From an uncultured Flavobacteriales bacterium (GTDB taxonomy: Bacteria; Bacteroidota; Bacteroidia; Palsa-965), in contig CAIQQJ010000070.1 in NCBI GenBank assembly GCA_903873905.1, positions 1 to 39,256 on the forward strand: DNA of 39,256 bases, written 5' to 3'. Position 1 is the first letter of the stretch. Each line of letters begins with the position of its first letter. The notes under the pieces were generated by a model, which was given only the letters and a program-made list of their open reading frames with translations, did no database searches and was not told the origin of the DNA. Both the position numbers and the translations under genes were made by a program. Shown one piece after another: positions 22,946-35,543 of the stretch.

Positions 22946-25900
22946 TTAAAAATCCAACATCACACCAATGCGGATACGACGTGGGATGCTATAGTTATTA
23001 GGATTATTAATTTTCACATTATAAAGATCACGGAAAGATTGTGAATCATTCTGAGCATTAATCAATGATTGCGTTTCAGCTGCGTTCAAATAACCATCGT
23101 CAGCAGCATTTCCTGTGTACTTGTAAACATTTTGAATGTTTTTTGTGTTAAGCACATTTAGAACCTGCAGATAAATATTCAAACTTGCCATTTTTTCAGG
23201 AGCTCCAGATGTTGGATTTCCTCCCCAATGAAGGTCAACATCTTTGTCAATTCGAAGATCCATACGAACCTGCCATGGTAGACGGGAACCATTAACTGAT
23301 CCCTGAAGATTTGAACGACTTGCAACACCAAACTGACCTTCCGGAGTAACATTGGATTGTTTTGTATAAGGTGTACCTGAACCTGCACGGAATACCATAT
23401 TTGCACCAACATTATCAAGAATACGCAACGAAGGACTCTGATTTGCTTTTGGATGCTTACGGGTCCAAACAGGTCCATGGTAATTTGCACCAGATCCGAA
23501 ACGGTAATCAACGTTGGCTACAACAGCATGGCGTTGATCGAAGTCAAGCGGAATAGTTGTACGAAGGTTTGGTTGTCCTGAAGAAATCAATGATGCTGCT
23601 TCACCTGCACCTGATCCTGTACCGTCAGCAAATTGAAGTGTGTAACTAGCCGTCAACTGAACACCACCTGTGCGACGAAGGTCATAAGCAACTGTGAAAC
23701 CTTTTGCAGTTCCAAAGTCAATATTTCCGTAGGTCAAGTAGTTAACTGGATAAGCATAATTCACAGCAACAACCTGAATCATGTTTCTGAATTCACGGTA
23801 GAAAGCAGAAAGCGTAATCGCAGAATTTTTCTTTGCGCTTAATGTTTGTGTGAAACCAAGTTCATAATCAGTTGTACGTTGTGGTTTCAAATCAGGATTA
23901 TTATTGAACAATCCAACGCGGTTTGCGATGTAGTAATACTGAATTGGATCTAAGCGGTAACCATCGGTTGGGCGTTGTGTCAATACATCATAATGTGCGA
24001 AGAAGTTAGCTTCTTCAGATATTGGGAACGCAAAAGCGATACGTGGCATGAAGTTCAGCTGTGGTTGATAATCCTTGAATGCTTTAGAACTCACAGATGT
24101 TTGAGAAGGATCGAGCAAGTAAGGTTTGATTTGTCCACCACCTGCATTTGCAATAAGTGCAGGATCTTGAATTTCATTTCCATGTGAATCATACCAAACA
24201 TTACCATTACGATATCCAGTAATAAAATTTGGAGTTGGATTTTGATCAACATAAACAACATAATCTTCACCCATGTTTGTAGGATGTGACCCAGATTGAT
24301 TGAGTGTTCCGTTGACCTCTTTTACAGTTAAGGCTTCATAGAAAAGATATTTGTCTTTCAAAACCTTTTGATTTGCATCGAATCGGTCAATTCGAAGACC
24401 TACGTTAAACTTGATGTCTTTAAAATCGAAATGATCTTGGATATAACCAGCCATGTAGATTGGACGGAATGCAGGTATTGTTCTGGCAAAATTTCCATTC
24501 GCATCAAGTTTGGTAAAGAAATCGTCAAATGAAGCTGTTCCATTTTGACGTTTTCCTGTATGATCATAACCAAAATAGCTTACGATATTGTTTCCATCAA
24601 GAAGCATATCATCAGCACTGAACATATCAAGCGTATAGAAATCTGGTCCGTATGAATCAATATCAATCCAATCAGTACTGTTAATTGGCATTCCAAGTTT
24701 TGCGCGAAGTTGTTTATCAAAATATTTTTGCTGATTGGCATCGTAATAACGATTGTAAAGGAAAGCATCGTAAGTACCAAAATTAACCTGTTGTGGATTT
24801 GCAAGATCCAATTGAGTAAGATGATAATTTGCAAGTTGACGCATGCGATCCCAAAGATTCAAAGGAGATAAGGCATAACCTCTTTCAGCTCTTTGTTCAA
24901 ATTCAAAACCAACTTGAATTGCATGATCCTTGATATCCGCAGAGAAACTGGTTGAAATCTGGAATTGTGTCTTATCATCGATACTATAACCATTATACTG
25001 ACGACCGGTATTGTACCAAATTGAATAAACGTTACCAGGACGATCGCCATTTAACAGACCAAGATTATTTTGAACTTCAGATCCGTTGATAACATTTCCA
25101 TTCAAGTTATCGAAAACGTAACTGGTATAATTGGATTCGAGTGGATTTGGAGAATCCACTGTATTTCCATTTACGTCAACATAAGTTGGAGTGAATGTTA
25201 GCGCAGAATCAGAATAAGCTGATTGAACAAAACCCAGCAATGTATCACCACCAATTATTACTGAACCAGGAGCGAATGTTCTAGTTTTATATTGATGGAA
25301 TGTTCCGATATGGCCATAATCGAAATACTTGTCTTTGTGTGTGTCATCTTGGGTAACCCTTTTGTATTTGGTATAACCAACCTGAAGAGTATAGAAAGCA
25401 TTCTTAATATTCGAGGTGGATTTTGCAGCACCTGCGCCTTGTGCACCAAAACGTTGTGTCAGTCGCGCATAAACCCGCCAAGTATTTTCATTTACCATTG
25501 GGTTATTGGAAGGGTTGTAAATCGCATATTCATAAACGTAGTCATGACGATTATTATAATCGATCGATCCTCCAACAGTAATATTTAAATTTTCAGTAGG
25601 CTTGAAATCTATTTTTGCATTCAAACGAAGTGTTCGTGAAGCTACATTCTGACGTGCCTTAATTTTTTCAAGTTGATCAGCATGGACAAATTCTGCATTA
25701 CGAACAAATCCTGCGCCATTTGGTGCTGGTCGAAGAGGATTAACCTCCAGATTATGTAAAGTTGAATCATTCAATTTATAAGTTCCAATAGCAGAAGGAT
25801 CAGGATCTTTTTCCATGCTACCTTCACCTGAAAGGATAAATCCTAGCACTGGGCGTTTTGTTGCACCTGTTGTATCAGCTGCATCTTTTTTCATCCAAAT

Positions 25901-26686
25901 TGGACCACCAACGCTAAAACCAACGAAGTTGTATCCGAATTTGTCAAGAACTTCGGAAGTAATTAATTCCACACCACCGAAATACTGACTTTGAGGTCCA
26001 CGTGTTGTAATATTAATAACTCCACCTGTTGCATCACCAAATTGAGCAGGAACACCACCCGTAATTACGGTTACTTGTTCAATGGATTGTTGAGGAAGAT
26101 TTGCAGAACCGATTACTCGTTGTCCATCAATAAAATAAGCTGTTCCTCCATCACGCATACCACGCATATTAAGGGCTGCGCCTTCATCCGCTTGATATAC
26201 ACCTGCTGTAGTTGAAGCAACGGAATTAATGTTTTTTGAAGGCATTGCAAGGAATTCCTCGCGAGTTACCGTTCCACCTGACTTTGTATCTGGATCAATA
26301 AGAGGCTCTCTGTATTCTACAATTTCAACTGTAGTCATCGTAACACTGGTTGCCGAAAGTTCGATTTGGTTTGCACCAATCAAATATGTTGTTTTCAAAT
26401 CGGAAACGATTACACCTTTTTGCTCTACAGATTGATATCCTGTATATTGAATTTTCACAATATAAACACCTGCAGCAAGTGGTTTTATTTGAAACTCTCC
26501 ATCAAGATCAGTTTGGGTACCTCCTGCGGTGACACCATTCATAGAAACAGTGACAACGGCAAAAGGAATTCCTTCGCGGGTAGCTTTATCAATAACTTTT
26601 CCTTTGATACCGCCACCGCTTTGAGCAGTAGAGACAGTAACACCAGCTAATAGGATAGCAAGAACAAAGTAGATTTTTCGCAGCAT
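22946..26686 (-). CDS. TonB-dependent receptor with CarboxypepD_reg-like domain
   Basis: This outer-membrane transporter has 1246 residues. Order: signal peptide (1-21), CarboxypepD_reg-like beta-sandwich (about 25-110, GGIKGKVIDKATREGIPFAVV...), a segment TVEIVEYREPLID that may hold the TonB box, the plug (about 140-245, with GVYQADEGAALNMRGMRDGGTAYFIDGQRV and GGVPAQFGDATGGVINI), then a large beta-barrel with long extracellular loops ending in IRIGVMLDF. It is larger than usual SusC-like receptors and no SusD gene follows; instead a giant secreted protein and a PorV-like barrel do. The substrate is unknown. An exact -7 box (26763-26770) lies about 77 bases upstream. Confidence 0.93.
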   Translation of the reverse strand: MLRKIYFVLAILLAGVTVSTAQSGGGIKGKVIDKATREGIPFAVVTVSMNGVTAGGTQTDLDGEFQIKPLAAGVYIVKIQYTGYQSVEQKGVIVSDLKTTYLIGANQIELSATSVTMTTVEIVEYREPLIDPDTKSGGTVTREEFLAMPSKNINSVASTTAGVYQADEGAALNMRGMRDGGTAYFIDGQRVIGSANLPQQSIEQVTVITGGVPAQFGDATGGVINITTRGPQSQYFGGVELITSEVLDKFGYNFVGFSVGGPIWMKKDAADTTGATKRPVLGFILSGEGSMEKDPDPSAIGTYKLNDSTLHNLEVNPLRPAPNGAGFVRNAEFVHADQLEKIKARQNVASRTLRLNAKIDFKPTENLNITVGGSIDYNNRHDYVYEYAIYNPSNNPMVNENTWRVYARLTQRFGAQGAGAAKSTSNIKNAFYTLQVGYTKYKRVTQDDTHKDKYFDYGHIGTFHQYKTRTFAPGSVIIGGDTLLGFVQSAYSDSALTFTPTYVDVNGNTVDSPNPLESNYTSYVFDNLNGNVINGSEVQNNLGLLNGDRPGNVYSIWYNTGRQYNGYSIDDKTQFQISTSFSADIKDHAIQVGFEFEQRAERGYALSPLNLWDRMRQLANYHLTQLDLANPQQVNFGTYDAFLYNRYYDANQQKYFDKQLRAKLGMPINSTDWIDIDSYGPDFYTLDMFSADDMLLDGNNIVSYFGYDHTGKRQNGTASFDDFFTKLDANGNFARTIPAFRPIYMAGYIQDHFDFKDIKFNVGLRIDRFDANQKVLKDKYLFYEALTVKEVNGTLNQSGSHPTNMGEDYVVYVDQNPTPNFITGYRNGNVWYDSHGNEIQDPALIANAGGGQIKPYLLDPSQTSVSSKAFKDYQPQLNFMPRIAFAFPISEEANFFAHYDVLTQRPTDGYRLDPIQYYYIANRVGLFNNNPDLKPQRTTDYELGFTQTLSAKKNSAITLSAFYREFRNMIQVVAVNYAYPVNYLTYGNIDFGTAKGFTVAYDLRRTGGVQLTASYTLQFADGTGSGAGEAASLISSGQPNLRTTIPLDFDQRHAVVANVDYRFGSGANYHGPVWTRKHPKANQSPSLRILDNVGANMVFRAGSGTPYTKQSNVTPEGQFGVASRSNLQGSVNGSRLPWQVRMDLRIDKDVDLHWGGNPTSGAPEKMASLNIYLQVLNVLNTKNIQNVYKYTGNAADDGYLNAAETQSLINAQNDSQSFRDLYNVKINNPNNYSIPRRIRIGVMLDF

Positions 26687-29539: not shown

Positions 29540-30175
29540 ATGCCACTGATTCACAAGAGAGAAATTTCACCAACAGCAACATTGGGAATTTGGGAAGTTT
29601 TGGAAACTGAGGCAGAACTGACGGGAAGTTATCCAGCCGATCATTTGGAATTGGAACAACTAAAATCCTTTTCTCATCCCTTTAGAAGAACACAATTTCT
29701 TGCCTCGCGCTTGTTGCTTCACACATTAATTCCAGGCTCAAAAATTATTTATGATGAAAATGGAAAGCCGTTTCCAGATAAAAAAAATATGCACATTTCA
29801 CTTTCGCATTCTGGAAAATTAATTGCGATGATGATCGATGAAAATAAATGTGGAATTGACATTGAAACCATTCGACCCAAAATTGAAAAAATTGCCGTTC
29901 GGTTTCTATCAGATGAAGAACTACCTTTTGCATTACAAGAACCTACAATCGAACGCTTACATGTTTATTGGTGCGTAAAAGAAGCCATTTATAAAGTTAA
30001 TGGCGAAAAGAATATTTCACTAAAAACAGATATATTTGTTCACCAGCTTAATCCCACTATATCAGGTATTACTAGCGCAACGCTTACAAAAAGTGGTAAA
30101 TCGTTTAGCATTAATGTTCACTACGAACGATTTCAGGATTGTATGCTTGCATGGACAGAGCAGCACGGGCAATGA
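29540..30175 (+). CDS. 4'-phosphopantetheinyl transferase superfamily protein
   Basis: The enzyme moves phosphopantetheine from CoA to a serine of acyl or peptidyl carrier proteins. The Sfp-like protein (211 residues) has HISLSHSGKLIAMMID, the metal-binding GIDIE (about 112-116) and WCVKEAIYKVNGE (W-x-x-KEA-x-x-K). Length fits the Sfp group rather than the trimeric AcpS group, so it may serve fatty-acid or secondary-metabolite carriers. It is the first gene of a five-gene operon; its stop overlaps the next start as ATGA (30172-30175). No exact -7 box was seen; TATTTTTA lies near 29516. The link to GGGP synthase downstream is not explained by a known pathway. Confidence 0.92.
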   Translation: MPLIHKREISPTATLGIWEVLETEAELTGSYPADHLELEQLKSFSHPFRRTQFLASRLLLHTLIPGSKIIYDENGKPFPDKKNMHISLSHSGKLIAMMIDENKCGIDIETIRPKIEKIAVRFLSDEELPFALQEPTIERLHVYWCVKEAIYKVNGEKNISLKTDIFVHQLNPTISGITSATLTKSGKSFSINVHYERFQDCMLAWTEQHGQ

Positions 30176-30915
30176 AAGCGATTTATGATTTGCTTCTCCA
30201 GCAACGCGCGCAAGGGAAAAAAAGCCTTGCCGTATTGATTGACCCCGACAAAATCGAAAAACTTTCTGAACTTCTTTCTCAAGCAAAACTTTTTCCACCC
30301 GATTTTTTCTTTGTAGGTGGAAGTCTCTTGAGCGAAGGAAAACTTGAAAAATGCATTCAGCAAATTCGTGCATCTTCTTCGCTTCCAATAATTTTATTTC
30401 CCGGAAATGAAATGCAGATTTCTTCAACGGCAGATGCGCTACTTTTACTTTCAGTAATCTCTGGCAGAAATCCCGAGTTGCTTATTGGCCGACACGTTGC
30501 TGCGGCAGGAATCATTCATAAAAGTGGCCTCGAAATAATTTCCACTGGATATATGCTTATTGAAAGTGGCGCTCCAACGGCAGTCAGTTATATCAGCAAT
30601 ACACAACCTATTCCGCGTGACAAAAAATCCATTGCGGCATTAACTGCATTGGCTGGTGAACAATTGGGAATGAAATTGATTTATCTGGAAGCGGGAAGCG
30701 GTGCAATGTTTCCTGTGCCAGTGGAAATGATTGAAACAGTGAGAAAAAATATCACAATTCCAATTATTACTGGAGGTGGAATAAAAACAAAATCTGAAAT
30801 AATAGAACGTTGTCGTGCAGGTGCTGATGTTATTGTAATTGGAAATGTTCTTGAAGAAAACCCTGTATTATTAAAGGAATTTTCAGGAGCACTTAATTCT
30901 TTAAATAAAGTATGA
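30172..30915 (+). CDS. Geranylgeranylglyceryl phosphate synthase family protein
   Basis: Members of this TIM-barrel family join an isoprenyl diphosphate to sn-glycerol-1-phosphate, the first committed step of archaeal ether lipids; some Bacteroidota homologues have the same activity. The 247-residue protein has LAVLIDPDK (metal-binding), DFFFVGGSLL, STGYMLIESG, the family signature YLEAGSGA, the phosphate-binding GGGIKTKSEI and GADVIVIGN. The start at 30172 (MKAIYDLLLQQ) gives ATGA overlap with the transferase gene; a farther-upstream start would overlap by more. PcrB (heptaprenyl version) is the alternative, but the sequence looks closer to the GGGP synthase group. Its physiological lipid product is not known from the sequence. 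Confidence 0.92.
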   Translation: MKAIYDLLLQQRAQGKKSLAVLIDPDKIEKLSELLSQAKLFPPDFFFVGGSLLSEGKLEKCIQQIRASSSLPIILFPGNEMQISSTADALLLLSVISGRNPELLIGRHVAAAGIIHKSGLEIISTGYMLIESGAPTAVSYISNTQPIPRDKKSIAALTALAGEQLGMKLIYLEAGSGAMFPVPVEMIETVRKNITIPIITGGGIKTKSEIIERCRAGADVIVIGNVLEENPVLLKEFSGALNSLNKV

Positions 30916-31541
30916 AAATAATTGTCATTTCCCCCTCTAAAACTTCCGAAACGGAAACAAAAACAGTTACACAATTGTTTGAGCACGGATTGGAAATTTT
31001 TCATTTACGGAAACCCTCCATGTCAACCAATGAAATGCGAGATTACCTGAATTCTATTCCCGCACATTTTCATAACCGAATAGTCATTCACAGTCACCAT
31101 GGGCTCGCAAAAAAATATAATTTGAAAGGAATTCATTTAACGCGCGAACACCTGAAACATAAAATCAGAAACTGGTTTCGATTGCGCATGATAAAAATGC
31201 GACATCCTGGAGTTATTGTTACAACTTCCTTTCACAAACTTTCTGGCATTTACCAAAACAATAAAAAATACGATTACGTTTTATTGGGAACAATATTCGA
31301 TGCGCTCAGTGAAAAATTCAATGCCGGGTATAATGAACACAGTTTGCGGGCGGCCATTGCAAAATCATGCACCCCAATAATTGCAAGGGGCGGAACAAAT
31401 TCAGGAAATGTGAAAACCTGTTTTGAACTCGGATTTTCAGGAATGATTTTTTACAGTGGAATTTGGAAAAAAGAAAAACCGCTGGAGGAATTCTGCAAAA
31501 TTGTGGAAGAATGCCTTGCATTGAAATCCACAAAGGCATGA
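30912..31541 (+). CDS. Thiamine phosphate synthase-like (ThiE/TenI family) protein
   Basis: This 209-residue TIM-barrel belongs to the TMP synthase family: MKIIVISPSKT, LEIFHLRKP (where ThiE has QLRxK), NRIVIHSHHGLAKKYNLKGIHLTREH, VTTSFHKLSGI, DYVLLGTIFDALS, and ARGGTNSGNVKTCFELGFSGMIFYSGIW. Several ThiE pyrophosphate and Mg ligands are altered, for example Gln to His in the first motif, so it may be a TenI-like protein or a paralogue without TMP synthase activity rather than a true ThiE. The start overlaps the upstream stop as ATGA (30912-30915), and its own stop overlaps the pnuC start as ATGA (31538-31541). Translational coupling is therefore likely. Confidence 0.85.
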   Translation: MKIIVISPSKTSETETKTVTQLFEHGLEIFHLRKPSMSTNEMRDYLNSIPAHFHNRIVIHSHHGLAKKYNLKGIHLTREHLKHKIRNWFRLRMIKMRHPGVIVTTSFHKLSGIYQNNKKYDYVLLGTIFDALSEKFNAGYNEHSLRAAIAKSCTPIIARGGTNSGNVKTCFELGFSGMIFYSGIWKKEKPLEEFCKIVEECLALKSTKA

Positions 31542-32155
31542 TTCTGGAAAACTTTTCAGAAACAATTCTTCAAGCAGCAAAATCCACTTCCGTGATGGAA
31601 TGGATTGCAATTATTACAGCTCTTCTTTATGTAATCCTTGCAGCCAAGGAAAATGTTTGGTGTTGGTTTTTCGGAATTATCAGTGCAGCAATTTATATTC
31701 TAATAAATTACAAAGCCAAACTCTATCTCGATTCCTGGCTGAGTTTGTATTATGTGCTCATTGGAATATACGGATGGTACGTTTGGATCAAGGGTGCCAC
31801 CAATAAAAATTCAGGAAGTGTTTTGCACCACTTGAAAATTTCCGGACTCGCCATTGCCCTGCTTGTCGGAATTACAGGAACATTTATTCTCGGAAAAATC
31901 GCACACGATCATACCGACTCTCCTGTCCCCTACTTTGATGCAGCATTAACTTCGTTTAGTTTGGTCGCAACCTATTTAACCACTCGAAAAATTCTTGAGA
32001 ATTGGATTTTCTGGATTGTCATTGACGCTGCTTATGTAATCATTTATTGGATGCGCGAACTACCCTCTACATCCATTCTCAATTTGATTTATACCTTCAT
32101 CGCAATTTACGGATTCATTAAATGGAGAAAAGCCCTGAAGTCATCCGCCGCATAG
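31538..32155 (+). CDS. pnuC: PnuC-family nicotinamide riboside or thiamine transporter
   Basis: This inner-membrane facilitator (205 residues) of the PnuC family has about seven TM helices. Signature segments are MEWIAIITALLYVILAAKENVWCWFFGIISAAIYILINYKAKLYLDSWLSLYYVLIGIYGWYVW and WIFWIVIDAAYVIIYW. PnuC carries nicotinamide riboside; the PnuT branch carries thiamine, and Bacteroidota PnuT genes commonly sit near TPP riboswitches and TonB receptors. Here a TPP riboswitch lies about 0.8 kb downstream, so thiamine is a real alternative. The start at 31538 is chosen for ATGA coupling to the ThiE-like gene. It overlaps the following kinase gene by 34 bases. Confidence 0.88.
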   Translation: MILENFSETILQAAKSTSVMEWIAIITALLYVILAAKENVWCWFFGIISAAIYILINYKAKLYLDSWLSLYYVLIGIYGWYVWIKGATNKNSGSVLHHLKISGLAIALLVGITGTFILGKIAHDHTDSPVPYFDAALTSFSLVATYLTTRKILENWIFWIVIDAAYVIIYWMRELPSTSILNLIYTFIAIYGFIKWRKALKSSAA

Positions 32156-32658
32156 CCATTCTTGGCGCAGAAAGCACTGGAAAAACCACACTGGCACGTT
32201 CACTGGCGTTGCATTTCCACACAACTTGGGTGTCAGAGTATGCACGCGAATACATGTCTGCGCACCCTGGTAATTATTCGGTTGAGGATATTATTGAAAT
32301 TCAAAAACACCAATTGCTAGAGGAAGAACGACTTTCCACTATCTCAAATCATTTTTTATTTACCGACACGGAATTCATCGTTGCGCAAGTGTGGTGTGAA
32401 GATGTTTTCGGATTCTCTCCCGATTGGATCAATCAGCAAGTAAAAGAACATCAGTATGATTTATACCTGTTGACTTCAAACGATCTTCCATGGGTTGCGG
32501 ATCCTGTCAGAGTAAATTCTCAACGAAGGGATTATTTTTTCAACTGGTACAAACGTGTCTTGGATGAAAATAATTTGAAGTATGAAATTATTTTTGGTAG
32601 ACATGAAGCACGCTTGTTGAATGGAATAAACGCCGTCAAGAAACATTTCGCAGAATAA
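32122..32658 (+). CDS. NadR-like P-loop kinase (AAA_28 family)
   Basis: This 178-residue cytosolic P-loop kinase resembles the C-terminal ribosylnicotinamide kinase domain of NadR. The Walker A is GAESTGKTT (15-23). The substrate region is WVSEYAREYMSAHPGNYSVEDI, the Walker B-like strand is FLFTDTEFIVAQVW, and the lid/sensor part is NSQRRDYFFNWYKRVLDE. NadR kinase phosphorylates imported nicotinamide riboside, trapping it as NMN, and pairing with PnuC is the classic salvage arrangement. Given the thiamine context next door, a thiamine kinase role is an alternative. The NMN adenylyltransferase and regulatory domains of full-length NadR are absent. It is the last gene of the operon. Confidence 0.88.
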   Translation: MEKSPEVIRRIAILGAESTGKTTLARSLALHFHTTWVSEYAREYMSAHPGNYSVEDIIEIQKHQLLEEERLSTISNHFLFTDTEFIVAQVWCEDVFGFSPDWINQQVKEHQYDLYLLTSNDLPWVADPVRVNSQRRDYFFNWYKRVLDENNLKYEIIFGRHEARLLNGINAVKKHFAE

Positions 32659-32692
32659 AAATAATTTCCTCCACAGAAGTCACTTTAGGAAA

Positions 32693-32718
32693 ATTTGGTA
32701 ATTGCCGATTTCCAATTA
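32693..32718. repeat. GGTAATTGCCGATT short-period repeat
   Basis: TTTGGTAATTGCCGATTTCC plus AATT, about 30 bases before copy D of the palindromic element; same class as 3429-3458 and 16409-16440. Confidence 0.6.
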
Positions 32719-32747
32719 AAAAAAAAATGCATGCCTCTTTATAATTA

Positions 32748-32861
32748 GGGCGTGCCCCTCCTACGTCGGGTCGGGCTATTCGTTCCAAGTCCTCTCCCAA
32801 CCCTCCCAACAGCATTGTTGGGATTGGGGGGATCCGGGCTTTCCTCTTCTATCCCTCACGC
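32748..32861 (+). repeat. Palindromic dispersed element, copy D
   Basis: Ends GGGCGTGCCCC and ATCCCTCACGC, core GGTCGGGCTATTCGTTCCAAG. Site 1 has CTCCTACGTCGGG. Site 2 holds CCCAACAGCATTGTTGGG plus flanking CCCTCCC and GGGGGGATCCGGG. Short ORFs here are repeat translations. Confidence 0.87.
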
Positions 32862-32873
32862 AAAAAGAAAAAT

Positions 32874-32964
32874 AAAAAAAGAATATCTCCCCTTGTCACA
32901 TGTCCCCTGTCCCCTAAAAAAAGAATATCTCCCCTTGTCACATGTCCCCTGTCCCTTGTCCCTT
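32874..32964 (+). repeat. 42-bp tandem duplication of GTCCC heptamers before the riboswitch promoter
   Basis: The unit is an A-run, GAATATCTCCCCTT and the heptamers GTCACAT, GTCCCCT, GTCCC(C/T)T. It is present twice with a 42-base period (32874-32915 and 32916-32957, differing only near the end), plus a final GTCCCTT to 32964. The array ends six bases before the -7 box. Confidence 0.88.
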
Positions 32965-32970
32965 TTTTTA

Positions 32971-32978
32971 TACATTTG
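32971..32978 (+). promoter_or_regulatory. -7 promoter box of the TPP-riboswitch transcript
   Basis: TACATTTG exactly fits TAnnTTTG; transcription would start near 32985, just before the riboswitch. Confidence 0.75.
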
Positions 32979-32985
32979 CACCGAT

Positions 32986-33099
32986 CCTCAAAGGGGTGTT
33001 CTGATTTTTTCAGGACTGAGAAAATACCCTGCGGAGACAGTATCTCAAAATGCTGTTAACCGCGCACCTGATCAAGGTAATTCTTGCGTAGGGAAATTG
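32986..33099 (+). promoter_or_regulatory. TPP riboswitch (THI element)
   Basis: All conserved blocks of the thiamine-pyrophosphate aptamer are present in order: GGGGTG (32993-32998), CTGAGA followed by AATACCC (33016-33029), GCACCTGATC with AAGGTAATTC (33064-33083), and GCGTAGGGAA (33086-33095). A candidate expression platform follows at 33101-33137: TTTACA with TGTAAA enclosing GGTGAAT with ATTCATC. No T-run follows, so control of translation start is more likely than termination, by inference. It lies directly upstream of the TonB-receptor start at 33156. Confidence 0.96.
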
Positions 33100-33155
33100 G
33101 TTTACATCAACAGGTGAATATTATTCATCATTGTAAATCGCAAAGGGAAATTAGA

Positions 33156-35543
33156 ATGAAAACTATTTTTAAATTTTTGGCTGCCATTATGGTTTTGCCG
33201 ATTCTTGCAGTTGCACAAAATGATGTGAGTGGAAAAATCACCGATGAAATTACTGGGAAAGAATTACCCTTTGTCGTTGTCAAATTAAATGGAACTTTTC
33301 GTGGCACCATTTCAGATGCGGATGGAAACTTCTCCATTAAAAATATTCTCGGAGAAAATTGCTGCTTGACATTCAGTTACGTCGGTTATGAAACCGATAC
33401 GGCATGCGTTTCGATTCCACATAAGGAAACTATAGCAGTGACATTAAAGCCTGGAAAAACATTGGAGGAAATTGTTGTTAATGGAACGCGCGCCAATGAA
33501 AATTCTGCAACAGCCTACACCACACTTTCAAAAGAAGATTTGCAAAAAAACAATTTTGGCCAAGATCTTCCCTACGTATTGGATCAACTTCCTTCCGTTG
33601 TAACGACTTCCGACGCAGGAACTGGTGTTGGCTACACCGGAATTCGCATTCGAGGATCCGACAACTCACGCGTGAATGTTACCATCAATGGAATTCCTGT
33701 CAATGATGCGGAATCGCAAGGAACGTATTGGGTGGATCTTCCCGATGTTGTTTCTTCCACTGACAATATTCAGGTGCAACGCGGTGCAGGAACTTCTACC
33801 AATGGCGCAGGTGCATTTGGAGGATCAATAAATATGCAAACGGATGGAGTGCAAACAAAACCATATGGAGAAATCATGAGTTCAGGTGGTTCGTTCAATA
33901 CCTTCCGCACCACCATGAAAGGTGGAACCGGATTATTAAATAACGGTTGGGCATTTGATGCTCGATTATCACGAATGAATTCCAATGGATATATTGATCG
34001 CGGTTCATCCGATTTGCGTTCTTGGTATTTATCGGGAGGGTGGTATGGAAAGAATGTTTCGGTCAAGGCAATTGCTTTTTCAGGAACCGAAAAAACATAT
34101 CAGTGTTGGTATGGCGTTCCTGAAGATTCCCTTAAAACCGGAAATCGCACGTTCAATGCCGCAGGGTTGTATTATGATGCAACTGGTGCGGTACATTATT
34201 ATGATAATGAAACCGACAATTACCAACAAGACTATTACCAACTGCATTGCCTCGCACGTGCAACGGATAACTGGACATTCAACGCCGCATTGCATGCAAC
34301 AAAAGGAAAAGGTTATTATGAAGAATTCCGTCAAGCCGATTTACTTTCCAGTTATGGTTTGGATACCGGAAGCGCTTCGACAGATTTAGTACGTCGTTTG
34401 TATTTGGACAATTGGTTTTACGGAATTACTTATGGCGCGCACTACGATAGTCATAAAAAAACAGAATTATTGATTGGAGGCGCTACAAACAATTATGAAG
34501 GACAACATTACAATGAAATTGTCTGGGCGCAACATTTGCCAGTAGGAACGCCAAGTGTTTATCGTTATGAATCGCAATACGCGCGCAAACTCGATGCGAA
34601 TATTTTTGCACGAATGAATTACCAGGCAACAGAAAAAATAAATCTTTTTGCCGACCTGCAATTCCGAATGGTGAATTATCATTTCACAGGACCTGATACC
34701 TTGGGAAATCTCTTGCCTTCTAATGCGAAATTGAATTTCTTCAATCCGAAAGCCGGTGCAACATTCCGTGTCAATGATAAAAACCAAGTTTACTATTCCT
34801 TCAGCACCGCGCATAAAGAACCGAATCGTGATGATTATGTGAATTCAAGCATCAACAGTCGTCCGCTTGCTGAAATTCTTTATGACAATGAAGCAGGATG
34901 GAAATTCAATAGCAACAAACTTCTAATTGGTGTGAACCTGTATTATATGAATTACATCAATCAACTTGTATTGACAGGGAAAGTAAATGATGTGGGTGCA
35001 TACACGCGCGTGAACGTTCCGAATTCATATCGTGCAGGAATAGAATTGGAAGCTGGGTATAAAATTTGCAAATCGCTTTCTTTTGCTGCGAATGCAACTT
35101 ACAGTCGGAACAAAATCAAAAACTATTTGGAATATTTGGATGATTATGATAATGGCGGACAAGTGATAAACATCTACACCAATACCGACATTGCCTTTTC
35201 ACCTTCCATTATTTCAGCCGCATCGCTCACTTACAAATGTGAAAAAGGTTTCAGCGCAACACTCACCGAAAAATATGTTGGCCAACAATATCTCGACAAT
35301 ACTTCAAGCGATTCGAGAAAGTTGGATGCTTATGCCATTACCAATTTACGATTGAGTTATGCTTTCAAACCCAAATTCTTCAAGGAAATCACAACATCCA
35401 TTCTCATCAATAATTTGTTCAACACAAAATATTCTTCCAATGGATATTCCTACGGATACATTTATGGCGGAACGCAATACTTCAATTATTTCTATCCCCA
35501 AGCAGGAATAAATATTTTGGGAATGATTGATTTGAAATTTTAG
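33156..35543 (+). CDS. TPP-riboswitch-controlled TonB-dependent receptor
   Basis: This outer-membrane receptor (795 residues) has a signal peptide (1-20, ending LAVAQ), a CarboxypepD_reg-like domain (about 23-105, GKITDEITGKELPFVVV to VTLKPGK), the plug (about 115-235, with GVGYTGIRIRGSDNSRVNVTINGIPVNDAESQGTYWVDLPD and GAGTSTNGAGAFGGSINMQT) and a C-terminal barrel ending QAGINILGMIDLKF. The TPP riboswitch in its leader makes uptake of thiamine, a thiamine phosphate or a precursor the likely role. An in-frame ATG at 33084 lies inside the aptamer; ATG 33156 is chosen because it begins the signal peptide, after AAAGGGAAATTAGA. Transcription appears monocistronic. Confidence 0.94.
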   Translation: MKTIFKFLAAIMVLPILAVAQNDVSGKITDEITGKELPFVVVKLNGTFRGTISDADGNFSIKNILGENCCLTFSYVGYETDTACVSIPHKETIAVTLKPGKTLEEIVVNGTRANENSATAYTTLSKEDLQKNNFGQDLPYVLDQLPSVVTTSDAGTGVGYTGIRIRGSDNSRVNVTINGIPVNDAESQGTYWVDLPDVVSSTDNIQVQRGAGTSTNGAGAFGGSINMQTDGVQTKPYGEIMSSGGSFNTFRTTMKGGTGLLNNGWAFDARLSRMNSNGYIDRGSSDLRSWYLSGGWYGKNVSVKAIAFSGTEKTYQCWYGVPEDSLKTGNRTFNAAGLYYDATGAVHYYDNETDNYQQDYYQLHCLARATDNWTFNAALHATKGKGYYEEFRQADLLSSYGLDTGSASTDLVRRLYLDNWFYGITYGAHYDSHKKTELLIGGATNNYEGQHYNEIVWAQHLPVGTPSVYRYESQYARKLDANIFARMNYQATEKINLFADLQFRMVNYHFTGPDTLGNLLPSNAKLNFFNPKAGATFRVNDKNQVYYSFSTAHKEPNRDDYVNSSINSRPLAEILYDNEAGWKFNSNKLLIGVNLYYMNYINQLVLTGKVNDVGAYTRVNVPNSYRAGIELEAGYKICKSLSFAANATYSRNKIKNYLEYLDDYDNGGQVINIYTNTDIAFSPSIISAASLTYKCEKGFSATLTEKYVGQQYLDNTSSDSRKLDAYAITNLRLSYAFKPKFFKEITTSILINNLFNTKYSSNGYSYGYIYGGTQYFNYFYPQAGINILGMIDLKF

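Follow-up and report, generated by a model that had tools for sequence, protein, structure and literature searches.

A Probable Thiamine Salvage Locus with a NadR-Family Kinase in an Uncultured Flavobacteriales Bacterium

Introduction

Taken by family, a PnuC transporter next to a NadR-like kinase means nicotinamide riboside (NR) salvage for nicotinamide adenine dinucleotide (NAD). In contig CAIQQJ010000070.1 of an uncultured Flavobacteriales bacterium (GenBank assembly GCA_903873905.1), such a pair stands beside a TenI/ThiE-like gene and a TonB-dependent receptor preceded by a thiamine pyrophosphate (TPP) riboswitch, which raises the question of whether the transporter and kinase serve NAD or thiamine. 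The original prediction for this region, made from the sequence alone, had suggested that both could act on thiamine. Our window is the whole 39,256-base contig, part of a 3.93 Mb genome in 181 contigs. Comparative sequence tests lend strong support to that suggestion, with the PnuC residues and the PnuT grouping neutral, and the region is quite probably a thiamine (vitamin B1) salvage locus in which the receptor, the PnuC-family transporter, and the NadR-family kinase feed ThiL.

Proposed Route and Genome Content

In the proposed route, thiamine would enter across the outer membrane via the TonB receptor, whose expression would be set by the TPP riboswitch, and the PnuC-family protein, acting as PnuT, would carry it over the inner membrane. 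The NadR-family kinase would then trap it as thiamine monophosphate (TMP), which ThiL would convert to TPP. The Bacteroides OMthi-PnuT-Tnr3 system has a thiamine pyrophosphokinase (Tnr3/TPK), whose place the kinase would take here. Under the rival explanation, PnuC imports NR, the kinase makes nicotinamide mononucleotide (NMN), and the TPP-controlled receptor is an unrelated neighbor; we consider this unlikely. It has the family names on its side (PF04973, TIGR01528 above its cutoff, and the NadR-type kinase), whereas NadA, present in this genome, speaks against it.

Profile searches of the genome gave no match to ThiC or TPK (PF04263), and the only PF02581 protein is the TenI-like one of the window, which is not ThiE-grade; no genuine ThiE was found. 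ThiL is present. With ThiL in place and both ThiE and TPK absent, the thiamine kinase is the missing step. The original prediction had also raised the question of another pnuC/nadR pair elsewhere in the genome; PnuC and a kinase of this type each occur in a single copy.

Distribution of the Kinase

In a sample of 149 genomes of the class, ThiE is absent from 96; the kinase occurs in 69 of these, TPK in 22, both in none, and neither in five (G024, of 0.5 Mb, G033, G092, G097, and G123; G, L, and f denote sampled genomes, fetched loci, and families, respectively). The kinase is carried by 77 of the 149 genomes, yet by only eight of the 75 with ThiE or TPK, and its association with the absence of ThiE and TPK gave a Fisher p of 7e-27 when kinship is ignored. 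A second sample comprised 274 genomes of the phylum, none from the class sample. Both ThiE and TPK are absent from 39 of them, and a NadR-type kinase occurs in all 39, scored as the kinase in 34 and as NadR-length in five; among these five, three show a clear NMN adenylyltransferase (NMNAT) motif, L147 has a degenerate N-terminal part, and L148 is kinase-like alone within an over-long open reading frame (ORF). The other 235 genomes include 18 with the kinase.

The pattern recurs at closer range. In the same genus, PnuC and the kinase are found in the three sampled genomes that lack ThiC and ThiE, and both are missing from the one that encodes ThiC and ThiE. According to the tallies, the same direction holds within f1, f2, f12, f20, f35, and f42 of the class sample and within f52 and f82 of the second sample; f27 and f49 each include one genome without ThiE, TPK, and the kinase. 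We rejected NAD auxotrophy as the driver, with NadA found in 48 of 77 genomes with the kinase versus 51 of 72 without it (p 0.30). Both the independence from NadA and the tracking of ThiE and TPK absence in two samples speak against NAD salvage. A widespread branch of the AAA_28 (NadR-kinase) family is likely the thiamine kinase that is missing in the B1 pathway of thiamine-auxotrophic Bacteroidota-type bacteria; it would be a non-orthologous TPK replacement and would feed ThiL. We found no statement in the literature searched of a NadR-type kinase serving thiamine, and a prior mention is possible.

Conservation of the Neighborhood

A pnuC match was present in 103 of the 149 class genomes, from which we fetched 105 pnuC neighborhoods, 106 loci including the window, and scored them with our own hidden Markov models. 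A kinase without a recognized NMNAT domain follows pnuC in 62 loci, full NadR (NMNAT plus kinase) in four, TPK in three, and none of these in 37. The order ahcY-PPT-GGGPS-(TenI)-pnuC-kinase-[TPP]-receptor recurs across several families, and kinase, riboswitch, and OMthi-type receptor occur jointly in 21 of the 106 loci. Two loci (L052 and L080) have the order TPP-receptor-PnuC-TPK, matching the arrangement known from gut Bacteroidetes, and in L133 the order is TPP-PnuC-kinase-TPP-receptor, with one riboswitch directly before pnuC-kinase and another before the receptor (L133:6876-8262). In L149, L150, and L151, the kinase lies ahead of TPP-receptor, and no pnuC was found in the stretch.

Riboswitches lie within 10 kb of at least 28 of the 77 kinase genes of the class sample, and within 2.5 kb of at least 23. 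A wider scan of genome_contigs covered the best 80 of 570 relatives, among them those of Pontibacter, Hymenobacter, Algoriphagus, Pedobacter, Mucilaginibacter, and Sphingobacterium. Within these best 80, pnuC lies just upstream in 59, an OMthi-type receptor within 5 kb in 30, and a riboswitch is found in 32; five have a fused NMNAT domain. This linkage to the TPP riboswitch and the OMthi receptor is a further point against NAD salvage.

As separate observations on this neighborhood, a tandem pair of TPP riboswitches precedes a single receptor in L175:5527-5774, and in L136:8176-10825 kinase and riboswitch are separated by genes for a short-chain fatty acid transporter and an Nramp-like protein.

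Receptor and Riboswitch

The window receptor shares 43% identity with the receptor of L080 and 39% with that of L052, both TonB-PnuC-TPK loci, and 30% with the NadR-linked receptor of L101; the remaining TonB receptors of the fetched loci match it over short parts only. An OMthi-type receptor behind a TPP riboswitch, which marks the OMthi-PnuT-Tnr3 system, is what the window locus has. In Bacteroides thetaiotaomicron (B. theta), mutants lacking the biosynthesis operon plus either OMthi or pnuT needed ~10 times as much thiamine, according to the available sections of PMC5613172. Separately, genes for a TonB receptor, PnuC, and a complete NadR lie in series in L101:4900-8561 without a TPP riboswitch, and this receptor is a candidate outer-membrane route for NR.

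The RF00059 match of the window riboswitch was obtained in a search of a 701-base stretch and scores under the gathering score of 54.3, so that with default settings Rfam reports no riboswitch for the window. Its core is nevertheless intact in the RF00059 alignments (CUGAGA, ACCUGAUC, GGUAAU, GCGUAGGGA) alongside the long inserted arm. We built a covariance model, R1, from 21 riboswitches; it gives the window riboswitch 65.8 bits, the window's own sequence being part of the training set, and detects 32 riboswitches, spread over 31 of the 106 loci. Three of four sampled relatives of the same family (L056, L084, and L131) have one of 134-154 nt at the corresponding position. The box TAnnTTTG, the Bacteroidota promoter form, occurs 17 times on the + strand of the window; the copy at 32971 may be the receptor's own promoter, but none of the boxes here has a -33 element in range.

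Kinase

The window kinase is a protein of 178 amino acids (aa) that consists of the kinase domain alone, with a ribosylnicotinamide kinase fold and a Walker A motif. The NCBIfam model nadR_NMN_Atrans matches it with 8e-33, below that model's curated cutoff. Its AlphaFold model (predicted local distance difference test, pLDDT, 94.8) has its best PDB fold matches exclusively among NadR structures (Z 20.9-23.3), with nucleotide and nucleoside kinases coming next (Z ≤16.8); this kinship favors NAD salvage, whereas the absence of an NMNAT domain argues against it. So do G014, G130, and G145, which retain a separate PnuC-NadR pair beside the kinase, as expected if the two have different functions.

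The motif W-x-x-D-[PG]-x-R has G in all eight NadR rows and P in 46 of the 62 kinase rows of the class sample. Although most rows separate, we rejected this residue as a rule: L133, L051, and L104 have G, and L133 is the locus with a riboswitch directly before pnuC-kinase. In the kinase tree, three f52 kinases cluster with the NadR rows (SH-aLRT support 91).

Several fusions were also noted. The kinase is fused to DUF4301 in L076:7769-9889 (PF14134 4e-201) and in L102:7886-10000, and the length of many more f52 ORFs (721-800 aa) points to such a fusion there too. In L071:5663-7108 it is fused to an aldose 1-epimerase domain, and in Pontibacter (L185:5530-6405) it adjoins an aldose 1-epimerase gene. 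A fusion to a GNAT domain occurs in L139:7721-8707.

Transporter

We placed the window PnuC in a tree of 108 sequences, the deep branches of which are weak. Escherichia coli PnuC clusters with three of the four NadR-linked PnuCs (support 98/92), and the fourth clusters with Neisseria mucosa PnuC (88/91, long branches). The window PnuC lies outside both NR-type groups, among kinase-linked PnuCs from its own family and from others (seven rows, 95/91), so that the firm grouping with NR-specific PnuC that would have spoken against thiamine did not appear. Constraining the six NR-type rows to one clade was not rejected (approximately unbiased test, p-AU 0.149). The tree argues against close kinship to NR-type PnuC, and with it against NAD salvage, without proving PnuT. 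In the placement among PnuC and PnuT proteins that the original prediction had envisaged, the protein falls outside the E. coli, N. mucosa, and NadR-linked groups, and the TPK-linked PnuCs branch apart from it as well.

Separately, f38 loci have a TPP-controlled PnuC followed by a protein of 357-373 aa (L059:6955-8764, L087:5753-7765, and L110:5910-10326), and that of L059 matches no Pfam family.

TenI-like Protein and Other B1 Compounds

The original prediction had called the gene upstream of pnuC ThiE-like. As ThiE it does not stand: in comparison with 1xi3, the active-site residues are not kept (Q is replaced by H31, N/D by H60, D by H80, and others), and 18 cluster-linked homologues retain neither these residues nor the TenI histidine. 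The window TenI-like protein is thus, by its residues, no canonical ThiE. Among solved structures, its best relative is 3CEU (2.8e-22), a B. theta protein. Residues H31, K34, H60, S106, and W185 are invariant in the 18 linked homologues and identical in 3CEU. The subfamily adjoins pnuC-kinase in 18 loci, whose hosts appear unable to make thiamine. The window gene is linked to pnuC in an apparent auxotroph, whereas in B. theta the tenI gene is part of a biosynthesis operon, as described in the available sections of PMC5613172. We infer that 3CEU is the product of that tenI gene.

A different role of the locus within B1 metabolism, with another compound as substrate (a precursor, breakdown product, or phosphate) or TPP formed in one step, and with the TenI-like protein involved, is quite improbable. 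The TenI-like gene is coupled to pnuC and is retained beside it in several families, and the phyletic data cannot separate TMP from TPP as the product; however, NadR-type kinases transfer a single phosphate, and no genuine ThiE was found to join hydroxymethylpyrimidine (HMP) pyrophosphate to thiazole phosphate, YjbQ not having been searched for. YjbQ is named as an alternative to ThiE in the available sections of PMC5613172. HMP salvage by the locus is unlikely since no ThiE was found in the genome.

Observations at Odds with Thiamine Salvage

Several observations weigh against thiamine as the substrate. The complementarity of kinase, TPK, and ThiE is not absolute: in f52, whose kinase is often fused to DUF4301, kinase and TPK occur together in two of the 149 class genomes and in 12 of the 274 others, ThiE being absent from three of the 12; ThiE and the kinase also coexist in several f38 and f52 genomes. 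It may be because the f52 kinases fall near NadR in the tree that f52 genomes carry TPK too. Four of the 39 second-sample genomes without ThiE and TPK have a NadR-like form only. ThiL, found in 148 of 149 class genomes, is compatible with the kinase route but not specific to it, since TPK genomes also hold ThiL. The kinase of L133 bears the NadR-like DG motif. In the PnuC tree, the TPK-linked PnuCs lie elsewhere, apart from the window PnuC. The aromatic site of PnuC (W156, W159, and D163; N. mucosa W182, W185, and N189), whose conservation fits NAD salvage, is common to NR-type and TPK-linked PnuCs, and we discarded the binding-site residues as uninformative.

The position of the riboswitch also counts here. 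It sits between kinase and receptor and precedes the receptor only, so that pnuC, the kinase gene, and the TenI-like gene are not downstream of it. Control of pnuC and kinase by the riboswitch in the window was therefore rejected; that the riboswitch is not ahead of pnuC suits NAD salvage.

Organization of the Window

The gene families and their order, as originally predicted, were recovered by profile matches, and the receptor indeed follows a TPP riboswitch on the same strand (Table 1). Five genes, from PPT-like to kinase, run head to tail, overlapping or nearly so. The GGGPS/PcrB gene starts with an ATG at 30172 that overlaps the PPT-like stop and overlaps the TenI-like gene at 30912-30915. 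The predicted translational coupling of the TenI-like gene to pnuC was confirmed, stop and start overlapping as ATGA (31538-31541), and the kinase gene starts within pnuC, overlapping it by 34 nt. After a gap of ~325 nt come the riboswitch and then the receptor.

Table 1. Features of the thiamine salvage region proposed in the window.
Feature	Coordinates	Strand	Evidence and remarks
4'-Phosphopantetheinyl transferase-like (PPT-like) gene	29540..30175	+	PF01648 5.7e-10; first of five tightly spaced genes
GGGPS/PcrB-family gene	30172..30915	+	PF01884 5.8e-39; NCBIfam NF003198 above cutoff
TenI/ThiE-like gene	30912..31541	+	PF02581 TMP-TENI E 1.1e-16; 3CEU 2.8e-22; B. theta 3CEU type
PnuC-family inner-membrane transporter, proposed thiamine transporter (PnuT-like)	31538..32155	+	PF04973 NMN_transporter 8.8e-53
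NadR-type kinase without NMNAT domain, proposed thiamine kinase	32122..32658	+	PF13521 AAA_28 7e-31
TPP riboswitch, long inserted arm	32984..33111	+	RF00059, 39.2 bits, E 4.1e-6
TonB-dependent receptor, OMthi type	33156..35543	+	PF00593, PF07715, PF13715

The gap between kinase and riboswitch also contains short direct repeats and, at 32765-32866 on the - strand, a sub-threshold match to Flavo-1 RNA (30.3 bits, gathering 42, E 2.3e-4). Another TonB receptor, unrelated to the OMthi-type one, lies at 22946-26686 (-), and a similar distance from pnuC is kept in f1, f20, and f33.

Relation to Known Systems and Implications

The available sections of PMC5613172 describe the Bacteroides OMthi-PnuT-Tnr3 system as BT2390, BT2396, and BT2397 and term Tnr3 a thiamine pyrophosphorylase. 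The known Bacteroidota PnuT system invoked by the original prediction thus exists as a PnuT pairing, but the partner in that source is the Tnr3 pyrophosphorylase and not a kinase of the window type. The window shares with this system a TPP riboswitch before a related TonB receptor, a PnuC-family transporter, and an adjoining kinase gene. It differs in having a NadR-type kinase where the pyrophosphokinase stands, with PF04263 absent from the genome; in having pnuC and kinase upstream of the riboswitch and a TenI-like gene coupled to pnuC; and in a host apparently unable to make thiamine. With PnuC-NadR salvage, the locus has in common the transporter family and the kinase fold, whereas the kinase without an NMNAT domain, the mostly DP rather than DG motif of such kinases, the PnuC outside the NR-type groups, and the linkage to a TPP riboswitch and B1 receptor set it apart. 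Judged by these comparisons, the locus is probably a variant of OMthi-PnuT-Tnr3 with a new NadR-family thiamine kinase.

If this is true, a gap in B1 metabolism would be filled for a large share of the class, given the kinase in 77 of 149 sampled genomes, and the "nicotinamide riboside transporter + kinase" of about half of the sampled class genomes would be B1 salvage. A systematic annotation as NAD salvage would be corrected, and predictions of dependence on dissolved thiamine would change.

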